Of a DNA stretch of 64,000 nucleotides, positions 17,832-59,539 are shown in pieces. A model generated the notes under the pieces. That model was not told the origin of the DNA and did not search any database. It was given only the letters and a program-made list of their open reading frames with translations. A program made the position numbers and the translations under genes. Numbering within the stretch: position 1 is the stretch's first letter; every line of letters starts with the position of its first letter. The DNA comes from Rosistilla oblonga (GTDB lineage Bacteria > Planctomycetota > Planctomycetia > Pirellulales > Pirellulaceae), in assembly GCF_007751715.1 (NCBI RefSeq), contig NZ_CP036292.1, forward strand, positions 62,001-126,000, read 5' to 3'.

Positions 17832-18398
17832 TTATTGAGCGATCGTGACCTTTTCGATGATCACGGGAGTGCGTGGGACGTCGCCGTGAGGGCCAACGTT
17901 TCCGGTGGCAACTTTGCCGATCGCGTCGACGATTTCGGTTCCCTTGGTCACTTTGCCAAACACGCAATACCCAAAACCATCGCGAGCGTTGGCCCGGTCC
18001 AAGAAACCGTTGTCGGTGCCGGTGTTGATGAAGAACTGGCTGGTCGCGCTGTGAGGATTCGGAGTCCGCGCCATGGCGATCGTGTACTTTTCGTTCTTGA
18101 GTCCGTTGGCCGATTCGTTTTGAATCATCGCGCCGGTCTCTTTCTCTTGCATGTTGGGCGTGAATCCACCGCCTTGGATCATGAACCCATCGATCACGCG
18201 ATGGAAGATCGTGCCGTCGTAGAAGCCTTTGTTAGCGTAGTTAACAAAGTTCTTAACGGTCTCGGGAGCTTTGTCGGGATACATCTCGATCTGGATCGGC
18301 CCCATCGAGGTCTTCATATCGACAACAACAGGATTGGCAGCGCTAAGCGTGGCGGTGGCCAACAGTGTTACGGCAAGCATCGCAGCGAAATTTCGCAT
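17832..18398 (-). CDS. Periplasmic cyclophilin-type peptidyl-prolyl cis-trans isomerase
   Basis: A 188-residue protein with a signal peptide (MRNFAAMLAVTLLATATLSA) followed by one cyclophilin domain. Family landmarks are VVDMKTSMGPIQIEMYPDKAPETV, FHRVIDGFMIQGGGF (catalytic Arg), TSQFFIN and a C-terminal FGKVTKGTEIVDAIG. Cyclophilins catalyse prolyl-bond isomerisation; the signal peptide places it in the periplasm, like E. coli PpiA. The size is normal for the bacterial class. AAGGAG lies about 11 bases upstream of the ATG. The gene stands alone, convergent with the plus-strand glycan genes across the hairpin array. Confidence 0.95.
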   Translation of the reverse strand: MRNFAAMLAVTLLATATLSAANPVVVDMKTSMGPIQIEMYPDKAPETVKNFVNYANKGFYDGTIFHRVIDGFMIQGGGFTPNMQEKETGAMIQNESANGLKNEKYTIAMARTPNPHSATSQFFINTGTDNGFLDRANARDGFGYCVFGKVTKGTEIVDAIGKVATGNVGPHGDVPRTPVIIEKVTIAQ

Positions 18399-18645
18399 CG
18401 GGTAGATACTCCTTGGTATCGGAAAGGCAGGTGGTTAGGTTTCACATCGCCCAGAGTCGTCGCAGCGGAATGAAACCGAGGGTTCTTGAGGTTCAACGAC
18501 AGGCTATTGTCCGTACCTGACCTGCAAAGGCAAGTCCAATCGATCGAAGTCTTTTCTATAAACCAAGTTTTGCTAGCAAACCCTAGCTTACTCAGATCGA
18601 AGCGTTCTCGCCGTTTTTTGAGTGAAGCAGGAGCAACACATCACT

Positions 18646-19199
18646 TCACCCTCCCAAAACGCAGTTTGGTAGGGAGGGTCGAACCAGCGCAGCGAGGTTC
18701 GGGGAGGGGAGTCCGCGGGGAATTCCAAGCGTCTCGAACCAGCGGAAGGCCCTCCCCGAAAAACGTCGCTAAACGCTCGTTTTCCGACCCTCCCTGGCTT
18801 CGCCGGGCGAGTGAAGCAACCCACTACTTCACCCTCCGCAAACGCAGTTTGAGGGGAGGGTCGAACCAGCGAAGCGAGGTTCGGGGAAGGGAGTCCGCGG
18901 GGAATTCCAAGCGTCTCGAACCAGCGGAAGGCCCTCCCCGAAAAACGTCGCTAAACGCTTGTTTTCCGACCCTCCCTGGCTTCGCCGGGCGAGTGAAGCA
19001 ACCCATTACTTCACCCTCCGCAAACGCAGTTTGAGGGGAGGGTCGAACCAGCGAAGCGAGGTTCGGGGAGGGGAGTCTGCGGACGATCCCGTGCCGCTCG
19101 AACCATGGTAATGCCCTCCCCGAAAAACGTCGCTAAACGCTCGTTTTCCGACCCTCCCTGGCTTCGCCGGGCGGGTGAATTAATGCATCCTTCACCCTG
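18646..19199 (+). repeat. Three tandem copies of a 182-bp MITE-like palindromic element
   Basis: Three head-to-tail copies with a period of 182 bases; the shared GGGAGGGTCGAACC ends at about 18684, 18866 and 19048. Each unit starts TTCACCCTCC and ends GGG(C)GAGTGAA, so its ends are inverted. The left arm GGGAGGGTCG and GGGGAGGG is matched by the right arm CCCTCCCCG and CGACCCTCCC, giving one long imperfect hairpin around a variable core. Copies 1 and 2 are nearly identical; copy 3 differs mainly in the core (19080-19115). Open frames crossing the array are by-products of the period. The same element, inverted, occurs at 40.4-40.75 kb. Confidence 0.9.
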
Positions 19200-23693: not shown

Positions 23694-26600
23694 CTACGAC
23701 GTCACTTTTTTTTTTGCGTCGTCGCTGAAGATCGCTTCATCGAGATAGTCGACGATTCCTCGCAGCGTGCGAAGCGTCGTCAACTTCTCCAGTTCCAACG
23801 TATCTTCCAGCGATTCGCCGTCGCCAGCGAGCTGCAGGACTTCGGCGAGGTTCCCCAGGATCTCGACCCGTTTGATCGAATCGATTCCGAGATCGCCTTC
23901 GAGGTCGGCTTCCATGTCGAGCATGTCGACGGGGTAACCGGTCCGGTCGGCGACCAGTTCCAGCAACGCTTCTTCGGCTTGTTGAATCGACGCGGGAGCC
24001 GCTTGGTCGTTGTCGGTCGGCGCGGCGGCGGCGGCTGGTTCGGCAACTGCGGGCGATGGCGCGGCGGGTGTCGGTTCCGGTGCAGCGGCTGGCGCCGGTG
24101 CGGGAGCGGGAGCAGCGGCAGCTGGTGGTGCAGCGGCGACTGGCGCGGCGGCAGGGATCGCCGGTGCGGGCTTCGCTGCGTGGCCGTTTTCGCCGTTGTG
24201 GCTGATCGCCGCGTAGGTCGGCTGCGGTCGCTGAGCGATCTGCGGTTGAGCGGCTTGAGGGAGCATGCCGTTGTCGGATTCGGGAGCTTCCCCTTGCAAG
24301 TACGTGACCATCACATCGCGTTGCGTTTGCAAGAACTGACGCATCAGTTGTTGGTAGCCAAGCATCACGGCTGTTGCTTCGTCATGATACGTGGCGGCGG
24401 GTGTTTGAGCCGATCCGTTGGTTTCTTGTGGAAGACGATTCGTAGCGGAGGATGTTAGTTGCATGGTGTTTTGATCAGATGGAACAACGGGAGTTGGAGC
24501 TGTCGGTTTTTGCGGCCGCTGTGGCGCGGCAGATGCTGCTGGCGGCAGCGGCTTCGTTTCACGAGGTTTTTGTGTTGGGACTTGTTGTGGTTTTTGCAGC
24601 TCCGCTGCGACGGCAATCGGTTTTGCCGTTGCCGCAGCCGCCGATGGTTTGGCGGCGGGTTCCTGTTTCGCAGGTTGGCCGTTTCCTGTGGCGGCCGGCC
24701 GAGGTTTGTCGGCGTCGGGATGACGCTGCCCCAGATAATGTTTTTCCGGTTCGTTGATCGGGCGGTTCCGCATCCCGTTGACCATCCATGCGTTCTTAGG
24801 ATAGTCGGGATGGCCGATCTGTGAATTCAATTTTCGCAGGTCGATGCGTTGCGGAGCACGTGCGGCAAACAGAGCCGAAGGCCGGATGCCGTCGACACCC
24901 GCGGTGATCAAGCGGCCCAGCGTGTGAACCAGTTGAGACAACGAATCGCGACCGCGTCGATCGATCGACACGGCGGTGTGCGGTTGGTCTTTCAACGTTT
25001 GCCCGACCAGACCGGTCAACGCGCTGCCGGGGCCGACTTCGATAAACGTTCGCACACCGTCGGCGTGCATCGCGGCAACCTGTTGACGGAAGCGAACCGG
25101 CGATGCGAGGTGCGTCTTGAGCGTGGCGAGCATCTCTGCCGGAGCGGCCGGATGTTTGGCGGCGGTTGTGTTGCTGTAGACCGTTCGCTGTGGAGCTTTC
25201 CATGCAAGCGAATCGAGCTTCTCGGCAAAGGCGGTTCCAGCGGCGGCGACTTGCGGTGAATGGAAGGCACACGAGACGTCCAACTTGACGACTCGCATTC
25301 CGGCGGCCGTCAGTTTTTCGATCGCGCTGTCGACCGCTGCGGTCGGACCGGAGATCACGATCTGCTGCGGCGAGTTGTCGTTGGCGATCGTGATCGCTTC
25401 GGCCAATCCGGCGGCGGATAGCTCTTTTTGAATCGTGGCTGCGTCGGCGGAAACCGCCGCCATCGCACCGGCAAAACCGCCGTCGGGCTGCGGTTGAGCG
25501 GCCGATCGCATCGCGTCGCCACGCGCCGCGGCAAGGCTCAGCAGATCGTCGTACGTCAACGCTTCGGCGGCTGCCACGGCGACTAGTTCGCCAAAGCTGT
25601 GACCGCCGACGACATCGGCGCGAATCCCCAACGCATCGATCACCTGCAGCGCGGCCCACGATGTGGCGGCGAGTGCCGGTTGAGCGACCGCTGTGTCGGC
25701 CAAGGCCTTGCGGTTGGCATCGCGATCGGCGTCGGTGAACGGCGATGGCGGATAGATCAGTTGAGCAAATCGACTGGCAAAATGTTCGTCGTAGACCGCT
25801 GCGGCATGATCGACCGCAGCGTGTGCTGCGGGGAATGCGAGCAGCAGTTCGGCGAGCATGTCGGGATATTGTGCCCCTTGGCCGGGGAACAGCAGCGCGA
25901 CTTTGCCCGCGGTCTCGGGTTCGATCTCGGCCAGGTAGATGCCGCGCGGATCGGAGATCGCCAACGGCGTCGCTTCACATTTTTTGATAGCGATCGCAAG
26001 ATGATCGGTCAGCTGGCCCAGGTCTTTGGCAACGATTGCCGCCACGCATTCGGCGGCGGTTGTCTTTTCAAAGGCATCGGCCAGCGAAGCCGCCAGTTCG
26101 GGCAGTTCCGGCATCGCGCCGGCGGCAAGCCAGGCCTGGATCCGCGTTAGTTCGGTTCGCAACGCGGCGGGATTCGCCGCTCGCCAGACCAGCAATTCGG
26201 CGGGCCAGTGGTCGCGAGCAACCTCGGGCGGATTGGCGAAGTCTTCGGTATATTCTTCCAAGACCAAGTGGACGTTGGTGCCACCAAATCCGAACGCGCT
26301 GACTCCGGCGCGACGCGGGTGGTCTTCGCCATTGATCCAGGGACGCGTCTCGGTGTTCAAGTACAGCCCAGTGTTAGGGAAGTCGATCGCGGGGCTGGGC
26401 GTTTCGACGAGCGTTGGGGGCAGGGTCTTGGTGTGCAAGGCCATCGCGGCTTTGATCAGACCCGCGACGCCGGCGGCACACTTGCTGTGACCGATCATCG
26501 ATTTGACGCTGCCGATCGCGACCGATTGGCGGCGGGCTCCCGATTCGTCCAGGACGGTCGCGACCGAAGTCGCTTCGGTCCGATCGCCGACAACGGTTCC

Positions 26601-29600
26601 GGTTCCATGGGCTTCGACCAAACCGATCGACGATGGTTCGACGCGGGCTTGTTCGTAGGCGCGTCGCAGGGCGCGGATCTGTCCGGTGGCGTTGGGGGCG
26701 GTCAGCCCTTTGTCCTTGCCGTCGCTGCTGCTGCCGATGCCGCGAATCACCGCGTAGATCTTGTCGCCGTCGCGCTCGGCATCCGCCAAACGCTTCAGCA
26801 TCACGATCCCAAGGCCTTCGCTGAGCACGATCCCGTCGGCTTCGGCGTCGAACGGCCGGCAGCGTCCCTGCGGCGAGAGGGCGTGCGTTTTGCTGAAGGC
26901 CATAAAGGCGTAAGGCGTTTGCACGGTGTCGGCACCCATCGCAAACGCGACGTCGGTGGTTCCCAGTTGCAATTCGCGGATGCAGGCGTGGACGGCGGCC
27001 AGCGACGAGGCGCAAGCGGCGTCCAGAGCGTAGTTCGATCCGCCCAGATTAAACCGATTGGCGACGCGGCCGACGGCGACGTTCATCAAAATCCCGGGGA
27101 ACGAATCTTCGGTCCATTCGGGCAGATGGTTTTTCACCGCGTCGCAAATCGCTTGTCCTGAGACCGGCAGTTCGGGAGCGGTTTCGATGATCGGCAGCGA
27201 GCTGCGGATGCCATACATCACGCCCATCGGGCTGCCACCGCCGCCGATGCCCAGCACCGCACATGCTGTCTCGCGGTTGAACGGTCGGCGATCGTAACCG
27301 CCGTCGGACAGCGTTCGCTTCATCGATTCCAGCAGCAACAATTGCAGCGGTTCGATCGACGCGATGCTTCGCGGCGTGATCCCGTATTCGAATGGATTAA
27401 AGACTTGGTCGGTCAGGAAGCCGCCCCACTTGCTGACGATCTTGTCGGGAGCTCGCGGGTCGGGATCGTAGAACAACGTCCAGTCCCAGTGCGAATCGCG
27501 AGGGACTTCGGTGACGGCGTAGTGTTTGTTAAGGATGTTCTCCCAGTACTGCGCCAGTTCGTTGCCGCCGGGATACATCGCACTCATCCCAACGATCGCG
27601 ATATCGCAGGGGGGCGGCGCGTCGACCGAATCGGTGAAGCTTGGTTTGGGAGCGACGTTCAAATTCGCCGAGGCTTGTTGCAGTCGTTGCGTTCCGGTTT
27701 GGCTGACATCGGCGTGCAGCTGGCCGATCGTCGTCACGCTGTCGCGGAGCGCGGCGACTTGGCCGACCATGTACATTCCGCGTTCGTATTGTTTGTCGCT
27801 GGAGACGTTTTCCAGTTTGCTTTTGCCACCATCGCTGGGCGTCGATCGCTCGATTCCCTTGCTGGCGACGCGCAGCCGCCCGATGTTCATCCATTCCAGT
27901 TCGCGTGTGATCTCGTCGGCGGTTTTGCCTTCGCCAGCCAGTCGTCGCCGCTCGCGATCGAACAGGTCGCGGTAAGGGGTTCGGATGCAGCGGATCGCGT
28001 GGCCGGGACCGGTTTCCAACAGGACGGTGTCGTGGCTGCGGATCGCTTCCTCTTGAAAGCGTGGCACGATCGCGCCCGCTTCGACAGCTTCTTTGGTGAA
28101 CAGATAGGCCGAACCCATCAGCACGCCAACTTTGGCGCCCAGTTGCGACAGGCGTCCGGCGACCGATGTTGCCATCGCGGCGGAGAGGCCATCGTGGATG
28201 CCGCCGGCGAACAGCAGATGCAGCTTGGAGATTTCTCTGGGGTTCTTTTTGGCAAATGCTTCGAGCACGACCAGCAAGCTTTCCCACAACACGAAGCTGC
28301 TGCGCGGTCCGACGTGTCCGCCGCACTCGCGGCCTTCGAAGACGAACCGCCGTGCACCGTCGCGGAGGAACATTTCCAGCAGCCCCGGCGAAGGAGCGTG
28401 CAGGTAGGTCGGGATGTCGATCGCTTCGAGCTCTTTGGCTTGGTCGGGGCGTCCACCAGCGATCAAGGCAACTGGTGGCCGGTGCTCTCGGATCGCAGCG
28501 ATCTGTTCGGTGCGGATCTCGGGCGGCAGAAAGCCCAGCAGGCCGGCACCCCAACCGCGATCTCCCAGCTTGGCTCGCGTGGCTGCCAGGATTTTGGAGG
28601 CTTCGGGGCCGCGCATCAGAGCCAGCGCGATCAACGGCAGGCCTCCTTCGCTGGCGACCGCTTCGGCAAACTCCGCCGTATCGCTGACTCGCGTCATCGG
28701 TCCCTGAACGATTGGCAACCCGATGCCGTGGCTGGCGGCGAGCGGTCCGTCGGCGTCCAACGGATTCACTTCGGCTGCCGCTTGGATGTTCTCGCGCGAT
28801 TGATCGATGATGGCGGTGACGGTGCCGCGAACGTCGACGCAGCGCTGGGCCAGCCCCGCGGCAAAGGCGAGGTCTTGGCCGGCGATCAAGACGCGCGGGT
28901 CATCGTTTGCGGCGACTGCTTGTTCGACGCCGTCGATCCAGGCTTGTGCAAACGATTGGTCGGGGGCGGATTCCTGTTTGGCTAACAGGTTCAGTTCGAG
29001 TTCGCGCAGTTGTTGCAGGAGCGCTGCGCTTGGCGGCGCGGCAAATCGGAAGCATCGCCCCAGCGATTCGCCCAGCAAATGAGTCTGGCTGCCATCGTAG
29101 GAACGGACCCAGGTGGCGGCTGCGGGGGAGAGTGGCGATGCTTGGGCCAAGAGGACCTGAGAATCGATGACCACGCCGCGGGCGCCGGCCGCTTCGCAAG
29201 CGGCTGCGGTGTGTGGGCCGATTCCACCTTGGGCGTAGGCGGGCAGACGCTGGCGACGCGCGTCGTCCAATCGGGCCCAACGCTGCAGCAGCAAGAAGGT
29301 GGTTTCGCTGGCGACCCAGCCTCCCGCTTCGTTCCCCTTGAGGATCACGCCATCAAGCGGCAGGCCGATCGCTTCTTGCAGCGCCTCGCTGCGCGTAATC
29401 TCGGCTAGCAGGCGGACTTGGTTCCCCAGCCGGTTGCGCAGCGAAGTGACTCGCTGAGCTGTGATTTCACCAGCCAGGATCACTGCATCGAGCTGCGACG
29501 CGTGTTGCGCTAGCTGTTCGAGGTGAACCGGTTCGGTGTTTGGACCGATCCGCGCGGCAAAAGGGTTGTTTGTGAAGCGAACCAATCGCTCGATAGAAGC

Positions 29601-29726
29601 CGCTGTCGAATCGCCGTTGCTGGCGAGGTCGAGAGTGCCGATCGCGCCGGCACGGCAGGCAGCAATGGCGAGGTCGATCGAAGCGAGACGAGGCAGGGTG
29701 ACGACGAAAATATCGGTCGGGAGCAT
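23694..29726 (-). CDS. PUFA-synthase-like type I PKS: NMO-NMO-KS-AT-ACP
   Basis: 2010 residues. Two nitronate-monooxygenase/FabK-like (PfaD-type enoyl reductase) domains come first: a degenerate one (about 1-230) and a better one (about 335-640, GLPIVQGPMTRV, EGRECGGHVGPR). KS spans about 706-1160 with DAACASS (Cys905), EAHGTGT (His1040) and GHSKCAAG (His1080). AT (about 1275-1590) has PGQGAQ, GHSFGE (Ser1377) and CAFHSP, favouring malonyl-CoA. After an Ala/Pro/Gln linker, one ACP carries GIDSIKRVEIL (Ser about 1950), the signature of PfaA-type carriers. The frame ends four codons after A10, as ...DDAKKKVTS. A -1 shift there joins the KR, giving 2589 residues. No DH, PPTase or PfaB/C gene is in the window. 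The product is probably a polyunsaturated or hydroxylated long-chain acyl chain. Confidence 0.92.
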   Translation of the reverse strand: MLPTDIFVVTLPRLASIDLAIAACRAGAIGTLDLASNGDSTAASIERLVRFTNNPFAARIGPNTEPVHLEQLAQHASQLDAVILAGEITAQRVTSLRNRLGNQVRLLAEITRSEALQEAIGLPLDGVILKGNEAGGWVASETTFLLLQRWARLDDARRQRLPAYAQGGIGPHTAAACEAAGARGVVIDSQVLLAQASPLSPAAATWVRSYDGSQTHLLGESLGRCFRFAAPPSAALLQQLRELELNLLAKQESAPDQSFAQAWIDGVEQAVAANDDPRVLIAGQDLAFAAGLAQRCVDVRGTVTAIIDQSRENIQAAAEVNPLDADGPLAASHGIGLPIVQGPMTRVSDTAEFAEAVASEGGLPLIALALMRGPEASKILAATRAKLGDRGWGAGLLGFLPPEIRTEQIAAIREHRPPVALIAGGRPDQAKELEAIDIPTYLHAPSPGLLEMFLRDGARRFVFEGRECGGHVGPRSSFVLWESLLVVLEAFAKKNPREISKLHLLFAGGIHDGLSAAMATSVAGRLSQLGAKVGVLMGSAYLFTKEAVEAGAIVPRFQEEAIRSHDTVLLETGPGHAIRCIRTPYRDLFDRERRRLAGEGKTADEITRELEWMNIGRLRVASKGIERSTPSDGGKSKLENVSSDKQYERGMYMVGQVAALRDSVTTIGQLHADVSQTGTQRLQQASANLNVAPKPSFTDSVDAPPPCDIAIVGMSAMYPGGNELAQYWENILNKHYAVTEVPRDSHWDWTLFYDPDPRAPDKIVSKWGGFLTDQVFNPFEYGITPRSIASIEPLQLLLLESMKRTLSDGGYDRRPFNRETACAVLGIGGGGSPMGVMYGIRSSLPIIETAPELPVSGQAICDAVKNHLPEWTEDSFPGILMNVAVGRVANRFNLGGSNYALDAACASSLAAVHACIRELQLGTTDVAFAMGADTVQTPYAFMAFSKTHALSPQGRCRPFDAEADGIVLSEGLGIVMLKRLADAERDGDKIYAVIRGIGSSSDGKDKGLTAPNATGQIRALRRAYEQARVEPSSIGLVEAHGTGTVVGDRTEATSVATVLDESGARRQSVAIGSVKSMIGHSKCAAGVAGLIKAAMALHTKTLPPTLVETPSPAIDFPNTGLYLNTETRPWINGEDHPRRAGVSAFGFGGTNVHLVLEEYTEDFANPPEVARDHWPAELLVWRAANPAALRTELTRIQAWLAAGAMPELPELAASLADAFEKTTAAECVAAIVAKDLGQLTDHLAIAIKKCEATPLAISDPRGIYLAEIEPETAGKVALLFPGQGAQYPDMLAELLLAFPAAHAAVDHAAAVYDEHFASRFAQLIYPPSPFTDADRDANRKALADTAVAQPALAATSWAALQVIDALGIRADVVGGHSFGELVAVAAAEALTYDDLLSLAAARGDAMRSAAQPQPDGGFAGAMAAVSADAATIQKELSAAGLAEAITIANDNSPQQIVISGPTAAVDSAIEKLTAAGMRVVKLDVSCAFHSPQVAAAGTAFAEKLDSLAWKAPQRTVYSNTTAAKHPAAPAEMLATLKTHLASPVRFRQQVAAMHADGVRTFIEVGPGSALTGLVGQTLKDQPHTAVSIDRRGRDSLSQLVHTLGRLITAGVDGIRPSALFAARAPQRIDLRKLNSQIGHPDYPKNAWMVNGMRNRPINEPEKHYLGQRHPDADKPRPAATGNGQPAKQEPAAKPSAAAATAKPIAVAAELQKPQQVPTQKPRETKPLPPAASAAPQRPQKPTAPTPVVPSDQNTMQLTSSATNRLPQETNGSAQTPAATYHDEATAVMLGYQQLMRQFLQTQRDVMVTYLQGEAPESDNGMLPQAAQPQIAQRPQPTYAAISHNGENGHAAKPAPAIPAAAPVAAAPPAAAAPAPAPAPAAAPEPTPAAPSPAVAEPAAAAAPTDNDQAAPASIQQAEEALLELVADRTGYPVDMLDMEADLEGDLGIDSIKRVEILGNLAEVLQLAGDGESLEDTLELEKLTTLRTLRGIVDYLDEAIFSDDAKKKVTS
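23696..23722 (-). other. Probable -1 recoding / slippage site joining the PKS and KR frames
   Basis: On the coding strand the PKS reads GCA AAA AAA AAA GTG ACG TCG TAG. The A10 run includes the classic -1 slippery heptamer A AAA AAA. Slipping back one base gives AAA AGT GAC GTC GTA, which runs without a stop into the KR. One extra A from polymerase slippage has the same effect. ACGACG and CGTCGT flank the run and could pair, holding it in a 15-base loop, and a GC stem (CCGC/GCGG) lies about 20 bases downstream. Confidence 0.6.
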
Positions 29727-40018: not shown

Positions 40019-40827
40019 AGGTCACTCTCCAGGGTGGTTTGGATTTCTTGACGGTTGCATCGGCGCCCCCCAGTCGAGGGTGCGGGAGATCCGATCGGTC
40101 GCCATCGAACAAGCGTCGCACGCTTGCGTTCAGTTTTCGGTAGCGGGCGAGGATTCTAGCCAACAATCGACCGCCACGACAACCGAGCTTCAAAACGCCT
40201 GCCTTGGCTATCCACTGCATTACAGGCTTTCGGGTCGATGCTTCCTGCTGGACCAATCCGGGGTGGGGTAAGTGGTGTTCAAGCGAATCGACAGCCGGTT
40301 TCCCCCAATCCCAGTGTGAGCCAAAGAGTGCGAACTACGGGCGTTTACAGGGATTCTGTGGAAAGTCCTTGATGATCATTGTCGAACATGCATTGACGCA
40401 CGCGGCTGCCCCTCCCCGAACCTCGCTTCGCTGGTTCGACCCTCCCCCGCAAACTTCGTTTGGGGCGGGTGGAGTTATGTGTGACTTCACCCGCTAGGCG
40501 AAGCCAGGGAGGGTCGGAAAACAAGCGTTTAGCGAGTTTTCCGGGGATGGCGTTCCACTGGTGTGAGAGGTAGTGAATGCTTCGCAGACTCCTCCCCCCG
40601 AACCTTGCTTCGCTGGTTCGACCCTCCCGTGCAAACTTCGTTTGGGGCGGGTGTAGTTATGTGTGACTTCACCCGCCCGGCGAAGCCAGGGAGGGTCGGA
40701 AAACAAGCGTTTAGCGACGTTTCCCGGGGAGGGCCTTCCACTGGGGCGAGCATCACGAAACTGTTCTGCCTGGAACCTCGCGGCACTGGTTCGCCCGTTT
40801 GCACGGTCCTGGACCGTGCTCGGCGAT
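40019..40827. other. Intergenic region containing the inverted 182-bp repeats
   Basis: No gene is visible in these 809 bases. 40019-40400 shows nothing I can name. 40409-40745 holds two copies of the 182-bp element (listed separately). A perfect 19-base palindrome, GCACGGTCCTGGACCGTGC, lies at 40801-40819, 9 bases past the stop of the second NRPS; it could form a 9-bp stem and stabilise or end the NRPS message, although it lacks a T run. Confidence 0.6.
40409..40745 (-). repeat. Two tandem copies of the 182-bp palindromic element, inverted
   Basis: The same element as at 18.6-19.2 kb, in the opposite orientation. The marker CTGGTTCGAC ends at 40440 and again at 40622, the same 182-base period. 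Each copy has CTCCCCGAACCTCGCTTCG, then a TTCGTTTGGGGCGGGTG block, CTTCACCCGC, and GAGGGTCGGAAAACAAGCG TTTAGCGA. The copies differ slightly from each other (for example GAGTTTTCCGGGG against GACGTTTCCCGGGG) and from the first array, indicating independent ageing. Confidence 0.88.
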
Positions 40828-58315: not shown

Positions 58316-59539
58316 CTAACGCATTGCAACGGTTTCGTCAGCGAAATCGAAGGTCAGTTCTGGCGTGCTGCCAGCCGACAACGAAATCGTCTTCTCTTCG
58401 GTCAACGTCCGTCCGTCGCGTTGGATCGCAACGGTGACGGTGTAGTCGCTCCAAACTTGACCAGCTTGCAATTGCTTGGTGCGGAAGGTACGCGTGGTAC
58501 CATCGGCATCGGTCGCGTTGCCAGCCAAAGTCACCTTGGCGTCAGCAGGCACGTTGACGGTCAAAACGGTTTCGACAACATCCGATTCGGCTTCTGGAGC
58601 GGCAACGTAAGCTGGCGCTTCAACCGCAGGTGCCGAATAGACCAACGAACGTGTTTCGCCACCGTGCAGGCGGACGACCTTCGATTCGGTGACCAATTCG
58701 CCGTTGACGGTGTGCTCGATACGGACGTCGTACGAATAGGCATAACCAGGAGTCAGGCCACGCGAGACGAATTGGCGGTGAGCGCCAGTGCTGCGGGTCT
58801 TGGTGCCGTTGACGTAAACGTCTGCGTCGGCGGGAACTTCCATCGTCAACAATGCTTCGCTTGTCGAGCTTGCCGATTGAGTTTGGTACGAAGCGCCTTC
58901 GACTGGTGTTTCGATGATCGATTCACCTTCAGCCGCTTCGGCTGCGGGTTCGCTGTAGATCGGTGCCGATTCGTACATTGGAGTCGAATACGATTCGACG
59001 GGTGCCGAATAGTAGCTGGCGCTGTACGATCCGCTGCTGCCGCCGCTGGATTGATGTCCGCTCGATCCGCCGCTGCTGCCATAGCTGCTGTAGGCGCGAT
59101 ACGAACCGTAGCTGCCGCCGCTGCTGGCATAGCTGCTGACGCTGTATCCGCTCGATCCGCTGCTAGCATATCCGCTCGATCCGCCGCTGCTGGCGCGAGC
59201 TGCACGCCAAGCTTGGTGGCGAGCGTGGTGCCGAGCCTTGATTCGCTTCAGGATACCGAAGTGTCCCGAGCTGCCGCCGCTGGAACCGGAGCTGCCATAG
59301 CTGGCGCCAGAGCTTCCGTAGCTGCTGTACGAGACCGAGTAGCTGCCATAGCTACCGCTGCTCGCTCCCGAGCTGCCGTACGAGCGATAGCCGCCCGAGG
59401 AGCCGTAGCTGCCCGAAGAGCCATGGCTTCCGTAGGAGCCGTAACTGCCGAAGGAACCCCAGCCCGCGTGGGCCGCTTCCCCGGTAAATGTCATTGCCAC
59501 GGCTGCAATCGCAACCGGAATCACGTGAATTCGTCGCAT
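58316..59539 (-). CDS. Secreted Ser/Gly/Tyr-rich protein with two TIGR03000 domains
   Basis: A 407-residue protein. After a signal peptide (MRRIHVIPVAIAAVAMTFTGEAAHA) comes a low-complexity Gly/Ser/Tyr region (about 26-175) built from repeats such as YGSSGASSGSYGSY, interrupted by a basic patch (ILKRIKARHHARHQAWRAARA). Two related beta domains of about 70 residues follow, LLTMEVPADADVYVNGTKT... and VLTVNVPADAKVTLAGNAT..., which match the TIGR03000 domain known only from planctomycetes. A possible structural or adhesive surface protein. GGGAGG lies 9 bases before the ATG. The gene ends in a strong terminator. Confidence 0.92.
   Translation of the reverse strand: MRRIHVIPVAIAAVAMTFTGEAAHAGWGSFGSYGSYGSHGSSGSYGSSGGYRSYGSSGASSGSYGSYSVSYSSYGSSGASYGSSGSSGGSSGHFGILKRIKARHHARHQAWRAARASSGGSSGYASSGSSGYSVSSYASSGGSYGSYRAYSSYGSSGGSSGHQSSGGSSGSYSASYYSAPVESYSTPMYESAPIYSEPAAEAAEGESIIETPVEGASYQTQSASSTSEALLTMEVPADADVYVNGTKTRSTGAHRQFVSRGLTPGYAYSYDVRIEHTVNGELVTESKVVRLHGGETRSLVYSAPAVEAPAYVAAPEAESDVVETVLTVNVPADAKVTLAGNATDADGTTRTFRTKQLQAGQVWSDYTVTVAIQRDGRTLTEEKTISLSAGSTPELTFDFADETVAMR

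Follow-up and report, generated by a model that had tools for sequence, protein, structure and literature searches.

In a 64,000-nt stretch of the Rosistilla oblonga genome (hereafter the window; the genome is G000, and G001 and G002 are two species of the same genus), three copies of a structured repeat stand between an ImuB-like ORF and an ORF resembling a peptidyl-prolyl isomerase (Table 1). The units are about 171 bp long and run head to tail. An exact 182-base period had been described in the initial annotation; the three copies stand, but the period is only nearly right, since the step is 183 and then 182. Tandem Repeats Finder places the array at 18632-19179 with a period of 182, 3.0 copies, 92% matches and a score of 919. 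The termini TTCACCC...GGGTGAA and the internal GGGAGGGTCG/CGACCCTCCC arms that had been pointed out are present in the units, and the array does adjoin the imuB stop codon (19201), with 21 nt between the two. An Rfam scan of the window at the gathering score gave no match, and a protein-level search of the genome contigs for imuB found no relative.

Table 1. Repeat units, their parts and neighbouring features (positions in the 64,000-nt window)
Feature	Position	Strand	Basis or detail
Peptidyl-prolyl-isomerase-like ORF, other side of array	17832-18398	-	name read from translation
Unit 1	18645-18815	+	profile HMM match, model 1-170, 157.8 bits; sequence
Unit 1, arm A	18645-18709	+	sequence
Unit 1, arm A hairpin H1 (ACCCTCCC...GGGAGGGT)	18645-18679	+	sequence; covariation, A1 columns 7-42
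Unit 1, arm A hairpin H2 (CGAACC...GGTTCG)	18680-18701	+	sequence; A1 columns 43-64
Unit 1, tail of arm A (GGGGAGGGG); its purines mirror the 3' strand of H1, candidate third strand of an intrastrand triplex	18701-18709	+	
Unit 1, centre	18710-18749	+	sequence
Unit 1, inverted arm A'	18750-18815	+	sequence
Spacer, units 1/2, locus-specific	18816-18827	.	12 nt
Unit 2	18828-18997	+	HMM 149.7 bits
Spacer, units 2/3, near-identical to spacer 1	18998-19009	.	12 nt
Unit 3, centre differs from other units	19010-19179	+	HMM 149.2 bits; sequence
imuB, ImuB-like ORF, 567 aa	19201-20904	-	ORF list; name from the initial annotation
Second array, same family: partial + full unit (40486-40654) + partial	40320-40796	-	13-nt spacers

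Each unit consists of two inverted arms of about 65 nt around a short centre. Its predicted fold is strong (-89.1 kcal/mol on the + strand and -94.9 on the - strand, z about -5.5), with none of 200 shuffles as good. The arms had been thought to fold the whole unit; the computed fold agrees with this, but covariation backs the hairpins within each arm and not arm-to-arm pairing. Covariation was scored on an alignment (A1) of 66 rows, comprising 64 non-redundant units from the genus and two from the genome G014; it left out 9 of the 73 non-redundant full units, which were short, shifted or odd. RNAalifold placed few pairs on A1 and its structure was set aside; the helices tested were those of a structure drawn by hand, by eye, on a single A1 row. 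For the within-arm hairpins, 92.6% of cells are paired and 14 of 41 pairs show a double change (54 cells), a level that none of 500 shuffles reached. A whole-unit hairpin was rejected as a conserved structure, with double changes in 1 of 32 pairs (4 cells), a level matched by 351 of 500 shuffles. Relatedness among the rows inflates the covariation counts, equally for within-arm and arm-to-arm structures. Mismatches of the G.T kind outnumber A.C (arms read from the outside inwards, summed by hand), an excess consistent with each arm folding as a single strand. What selection has preserved is thus not the whole-unit fold. The arm itself is laid out as a pyrimidine/purine hairpin, a second hairpin in the window family, and a G-rich tail mirroring the purine strand. 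In arm A of A1, 64 of 66 rows have at least six of eight mirrored purines, and a strict rule for the triplex motif is satisfied by 176 of 217 full units.

The element is dispersed. While the possibility had been raised that copies are restricted to the two arrays of the window, the genome-wide count that had been proposed as a check gave at least 86 BLAST matches at many loci in G000, and at least 120 and at least 86 in the two same-genus species, with the best 40 of 53-63 candidates per genome scored. It was found in 5 of 60 relatives, G000 itself included. Over the fetched loci, a profile HMM made 90, 119 and 87 matches in G000, G001 and G002 (full units: 65, 93 and 59), which fall into about 43, 38 and 42 clusters. 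Tandem arrays had been called unusual for such elements; here they are common, as 24 of the 43 G000 clusters hold at least two units and one G001 cluster holds eight. Spacers are constant in length and sequence within a locus and differ among loci. Unit ends form both borders of 63 of the 123 clusters, and 52 clusters have at least one border in a unit centre; the arm is therefore the elementary part. Comparison of flanks gave 47 cluster groups, 21 of them common to all three species (two of the 21 merged via related flanks). Unit number varies at these fixed loci, for example 1, 7 and 3 units at L053, L091 and L126, and 3, 3 and 1 at imuB, with flanking DNA 94-97% identical. The loci thus appear to be old and the unit numbers young. 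In G014, about 112 kb of one contig (G014:C2:241428-353542) holds most copies of one sub-family, judged from the best 40 of 129 candidates.

Copies in G000 are intergenic, save where they overlap a small number of low-scoring ORF calls, and the element lies just 3' of genes. Gaps that carry it number 46 convergent, 60 codirectional and 14 divergent, compared with 38, 152 and 59 gaps without it; convergent gaps are enriched (Fisher p = 2e-6) and divergent ones depleted (p = 0.008), although both p-values are too small, as genes were called by a home-made procedure and orthologous loci were pooled. The median distance to a stop codon is 30 nt, versus 57 nt for random points. At the few planctomycete junctions read, there was no target-site duplication, and the flanks of empty sites were altered. 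Both duplications and empty sites had been proposed as checks, and in planctomycetes and E. coli alike the few junctions inspected gave neither a duplication nor a clean empty site.

The initial annotation had placed the element among non-autonomous, MITE-like or REP-like repeats, which holds for its dispersed, intergenic copies and inverted ends but not for an IS or RAYT transposase as partner. REPIN and BIME families consist of one gene and many gene-less copies, and their arrays have two alternating spacers. The class of element described here resembles REP, REPIN and BIME repeats with their RAYT on both counts, as well as in its dispersed, intergenic, often clustered inverted palindromic arms. 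Unlike them, it has a predicted PD-(D/E)XK nuclease and not a Y1 transposase as its likely partner, and arms of 40-70 nt on a triplex plan. In G000 there are five Y1_Tnp (RAYT-like) genes (loci L029, L032, L036, L040 and L044). A RAYT partner was rejected: across four genomes the element is missing from all 25 Y1_Tnp loci (best E 1.2). The transposase with matching ends that had been suggested was not found there, and the likely partner is a DUF559 nuclease gene. Read by eye, each Y1_Tnp gene of G000 adjoins a different short palindrome family with two hairpins. Palindromes of the L029 type stand beside or between parts of 182-bp arrays at L148, L124 and L089, and two repeat classes therefore nest. 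With MITEs the element shares its short length, inverted terminal repeats and a gene-less twin of a gene-bearing element, but no target-site duplication was seen at the junctions read and there is no DDE or Y1 transposase.

The gene-bearing form came from the neighbours of the repeats. A Pfam scan of 78 genes adjoining G000 clusters found DUF559 twice, and no transposase family stood among the 25 of 94 families listed for the same genes. In four genomes searched, eight DUF559 matches comprised six stand-alone genes and two domains in longer frames. All six stand-alone genes stand among arrays of the element or of a related family. The other two (L194 and L197) are weak matches in frames of 384-385 aa, where self-comparison shows no repeats, and they were excluded from the flank test. 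At one G000 locus (L067), a truncated DUF559 gene lies between two units, and the counterpart in G001 (L098) has one unit and no gene. In G000 the gene sits between whole units, not in the unit centre where the inverted-repeat class has it, which counts against our reading. The closest named DUF559 gene, from Rhodopirellula solitaria, is adjoined by the window's element family; the arms at L217 and L222 share the arm plan of the window, and the arm at L191 bridges that plan and the canonical motif. In the genome G171, two arms (4075931-4076016 and 4076363-4076418) enclose a DUF559 gene (4076027-4076335), and 58 arm matches occur genome-wide, many in gene-less inverted pairs, most pairs reading 130-210 bp. 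This genome thus holds a gene-bearing partner with the same ends, of the kind expected for a MITE. Three DUF559 loci in G014 each have their own arm family; two of the families are close, and their arrays occur in three further fetched stretches. DUF559 genes also occur in tandem rows, five of them at G022:C5:330442-338537 and others at G127:C1:259159-302813.

To compare loci more widely, we relied on the similarity of left and right flanks, as Tandem Repeats Finder was too blunt on DUF559 loci. Flanks were similar at 30 of 30 testable loci from the family (35 given, 5 too short), at 16 of 16 from named planctomycetes (21 given; the set includes L265, labelled only 'bacterium') and at 38 of 55 from other phyla (59 given), leaving 17 of the 55 with no flank similarity. 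The RrnaAD control gave 2 of 28, one being a short-contig artefact. Repeats within 200 nt on both sides were present at 22 of 30 family, 15 of 18 named planctomycete and 37 of 58 other loci, against 0 of 27 for RrnaAD, 0 of 20 window genes, 1 of 200 random segments and 6 of 24 Y1_Tnp loci. Under a fixed rule, a triplex motif lay within 600 nt of DUF559 at 23 of 30 family loci, 10 of 17 named planctomycete loci and 46 of 56 loci from other phyla; the controls gave 0 of 27 for RrnaAD, 2 of 29 for window genes, 0 of 100 for random segments and 0 of 24 for Y1_Tnp, and shuffled flanks gave none anywhere. The two passing window genes may be neighbours of the window's arrays, since the window holds two. 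L228 was omitted from the control in the close-repeat and triplex-rule tests, and family and named planctomycete counts are not summed because 10 loci are common to both. Hence DUF559 genes are associated with hairpin and triplex-motif arms across phyla. At the level of whole genomes the link is weak. Of the 199 family genomes, 109 have DUF559, and the canonical motif co-occurs with it (22 of 29 versus 87 of 170; Fisher p = 0.015) in a test that ignores phylogeny. Motif-rich genomes without DUF559 include G151 (47 canonical motifs) and G067 (26). G001, which has the most units (119 HMM matches), has no stand-alone DUF559, and array growth therefore needs none.

The DUF559 partner is predicted to be a PD-(D/E)XK, Vsr-like nuclease of the E. 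coli YcjD family. The L192 protein scores 117.1 bits against Pfam DUF559 (PF04480; cut-off 20.6). A match to the PRK09767 model NF007294 falls below the cut-off of that model. The family profile matches PDB 3hrl (E 1.9e-34) and PDB 3r3p, a 'mobile intron protein' (E 4e-5), which we take to be I-Bth0305I. In alignment A3, E24, D53, E64, D66, H70 and D77 are invariant. The likeness to Vsr-like EDxHD homing endonucleases extends to this nuclease profile, and homing would account for spread free of a transposase; unlike them, DUF559 is without intron or intein, and hairpin arms flank the gene. In the text available of each source, YcjD has been linked to Vsr (PMC1189080), a Caulobacter DUF559 protein has been termed Vsr-like and tied to DNA damage (PMC12907096), and Legionella segments with a transposase and DUF559 have been termed recombination hotspots (PMC12308824).

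The arms at many DUF559 loci read CCCTCTCCC..GGGAGAGGG..GGGTGAGGG, which is the TM/PIT/BoxC motif of the intrastrand-triplex repeats described in bacteria by Holder et al. 2015 (PMC4666352, where Hoyne et al. 2000 is cited). The text available of that paper describes no transposase or integrase remnant and no mobility gene near the motif, calls the origin unclear, and does not contain the term 'DUF'. By its layout, the window arm follows this PIT/BoxC plan, that of a putative triplex: pyrimidine and purine hairpin strands are followed by a mirrored purine strand, and the elements are intergenic, often in inverted pairs and linked to local instability. It differs in an extra linker hairpin, the tail GGGGAGGGG and long tandem arrays, and the canonical CCCTCNCCC..GGGNGAGGG..GGGTGAGGG pattern has no match in G000, G001 or G002. 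In E. coli MG1655 (K-12), motif no. 9 (1351205-1351239) lies about 170 bp from ycjD, the DUF559 gene (1351407-1351760). Motif-pair loci vary among 5,426 E. coli genomes. In the handful of strains compared, pairs collapse to a single hairpin, the flanks of empty sites are altered, and the junctions show neither a target-site duplication nor a clean empty site. Lines without ycjD carry an efflux operon between fabI and sapF, as the available part of PMC12817139 also indicates; in NZ_CP070124 (3575189-3580452, L363), the efflux operon follows fabI where K-12 has ycjD.

We read the window array as a probable gene-less form derived from a PIT/BoxC-like element linked to DUF559, and such an origin is likely for the gene-less pairs as well as for the window's arrays. 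The fuller reading, a tandem cluster of such derivatives with a PIT/BoxC arm plan that was spread by the nuclease, seems to us reasonably probable. Similarly built repeats border DUF559 genes in many groups of bacteria, which makes the nuclease a good candidate for spreading this class of orphan repeats, and we infer that it moves the arms by homing-like repair. The nuclease would recognise folded arms and nick or cut at arms or arm-like sites, and repair would then copy arms elsewhere in the manner of homing; pairs without the gene would be carried along, as REPINs are on RAYTs. To our knowledge, no strand-transfer step is known for a lone nuclease, which counts against the proposal. So do the junctions read, which gave no target-site duplication or clean empty site, the many units of G001 beside its lack of a stand-alone DUF559 gene, the motif-rich genomes without DUF559, and the 17 loci of other phyla whose flanks show no similarity. 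Where arms follow one another as A'-spacer-A-centre-A', head-to-tail arrays could grow or shrink when direct-repeat arms exchange unequally or slip; the spacer would stay locus-specific, and no nuclease would be required. Array growth and loss are thus likely to proceed by recombination between arms, independently of the nuclease.

The repeats might instead be host elements at gene ends, serving in termination, mRNA 3' protection or supercoil control, with DUF559 as a homing-type parasite landing there and plain recombination varying the arrays. Such a role suits the nearness of units to stop codons, the excess in convergent gaps (46/120 versus 38/249) with depletion in divergent ones, arrays old enough to share loci in three species, the motif-rich genomes without DUF559, and a relative (3r3p) that is a mobile intron protein. 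We nevertheless consider it unlikely. At each G014 DUF559 locus the arm family is its own or closely shared, and two of the three have matching arrays at other places; partners would be expected to show this, and a parasite using one common host element would not. Loci also differ between close relatives, and PIT elements are described as having no promoter or terminator effect in E. coli in the available text of PMC4666352.

Two further explanations strike us as very improbable. One is a REPIN or BIME family whose mover was a RAYT (HUH, Y1) transposase that has since been lost or works in trans. The element is absent from every one of the Y1_Tnp loci searched, the triplex motif is absent from all 24 scored, and the DUF559 linkage is far stronger; in its favour, inverted arms that alternate and have spacers of two kinds do resemble BIMEs, and all five Y1_Tnp matches in G000 have palindromes of their own. 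Nor do we give much credence to a satellite only, in which a palindromic stretch was duplicated in tandem on the spot and never moved. Head-to-tail order, a spacer kept per locus, changing unit numbers at fixed loci and the collapse of E. coli pairs to single hairpins are all in its favour, but one genome has about 43 clusters, in intergenic regions unrelated to one another, and these require dispersal, as do related arms beside the nuclease gene. Local recombination accounts for the array and not for the spread.

Extended to bacteria at large, spread by DUF559 nucleases would make DUF559/YcjD-like proteins the missing mobility enzymes of PIT/BoxC repeats, each with its own arm family: one Vsr-like nuclease gene of about 120-140 aa plus structured arms, spreading in a homing-like way with no transposase, the planctomycete tandem arrays being the most expanded gene-less form. 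We regard this extension as evenly balanced between right and wrong. The mobility gene of PIT/BoxC repeats was previously unknown, and no mention of a linkage to DUF559 appears in the titles and abstract openings of our literature search (open PMC papers), in which no paper on Rhodopirellula and an intergenic repeat was found either. The controlled linkage across phyla offers a testable answer to the origin of these repeats and points to a role for DUF559, a widespread domain whose function had been unknown. Repeats would thereby have a further way of spreading through bacterial genomes, one that relies on a nuclease and not on a transposase, and fast-changing tandem loci at gene ends would be accounted for.

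Elsewhere in the window, minisatellites of 18-36 bp (59132-59455) lie inside a called gene (58316-59494), and a 2010-aa ORF (23694-29726) resembles, from its translation, a polyketide or polyunsaturated fatty acid synthase.
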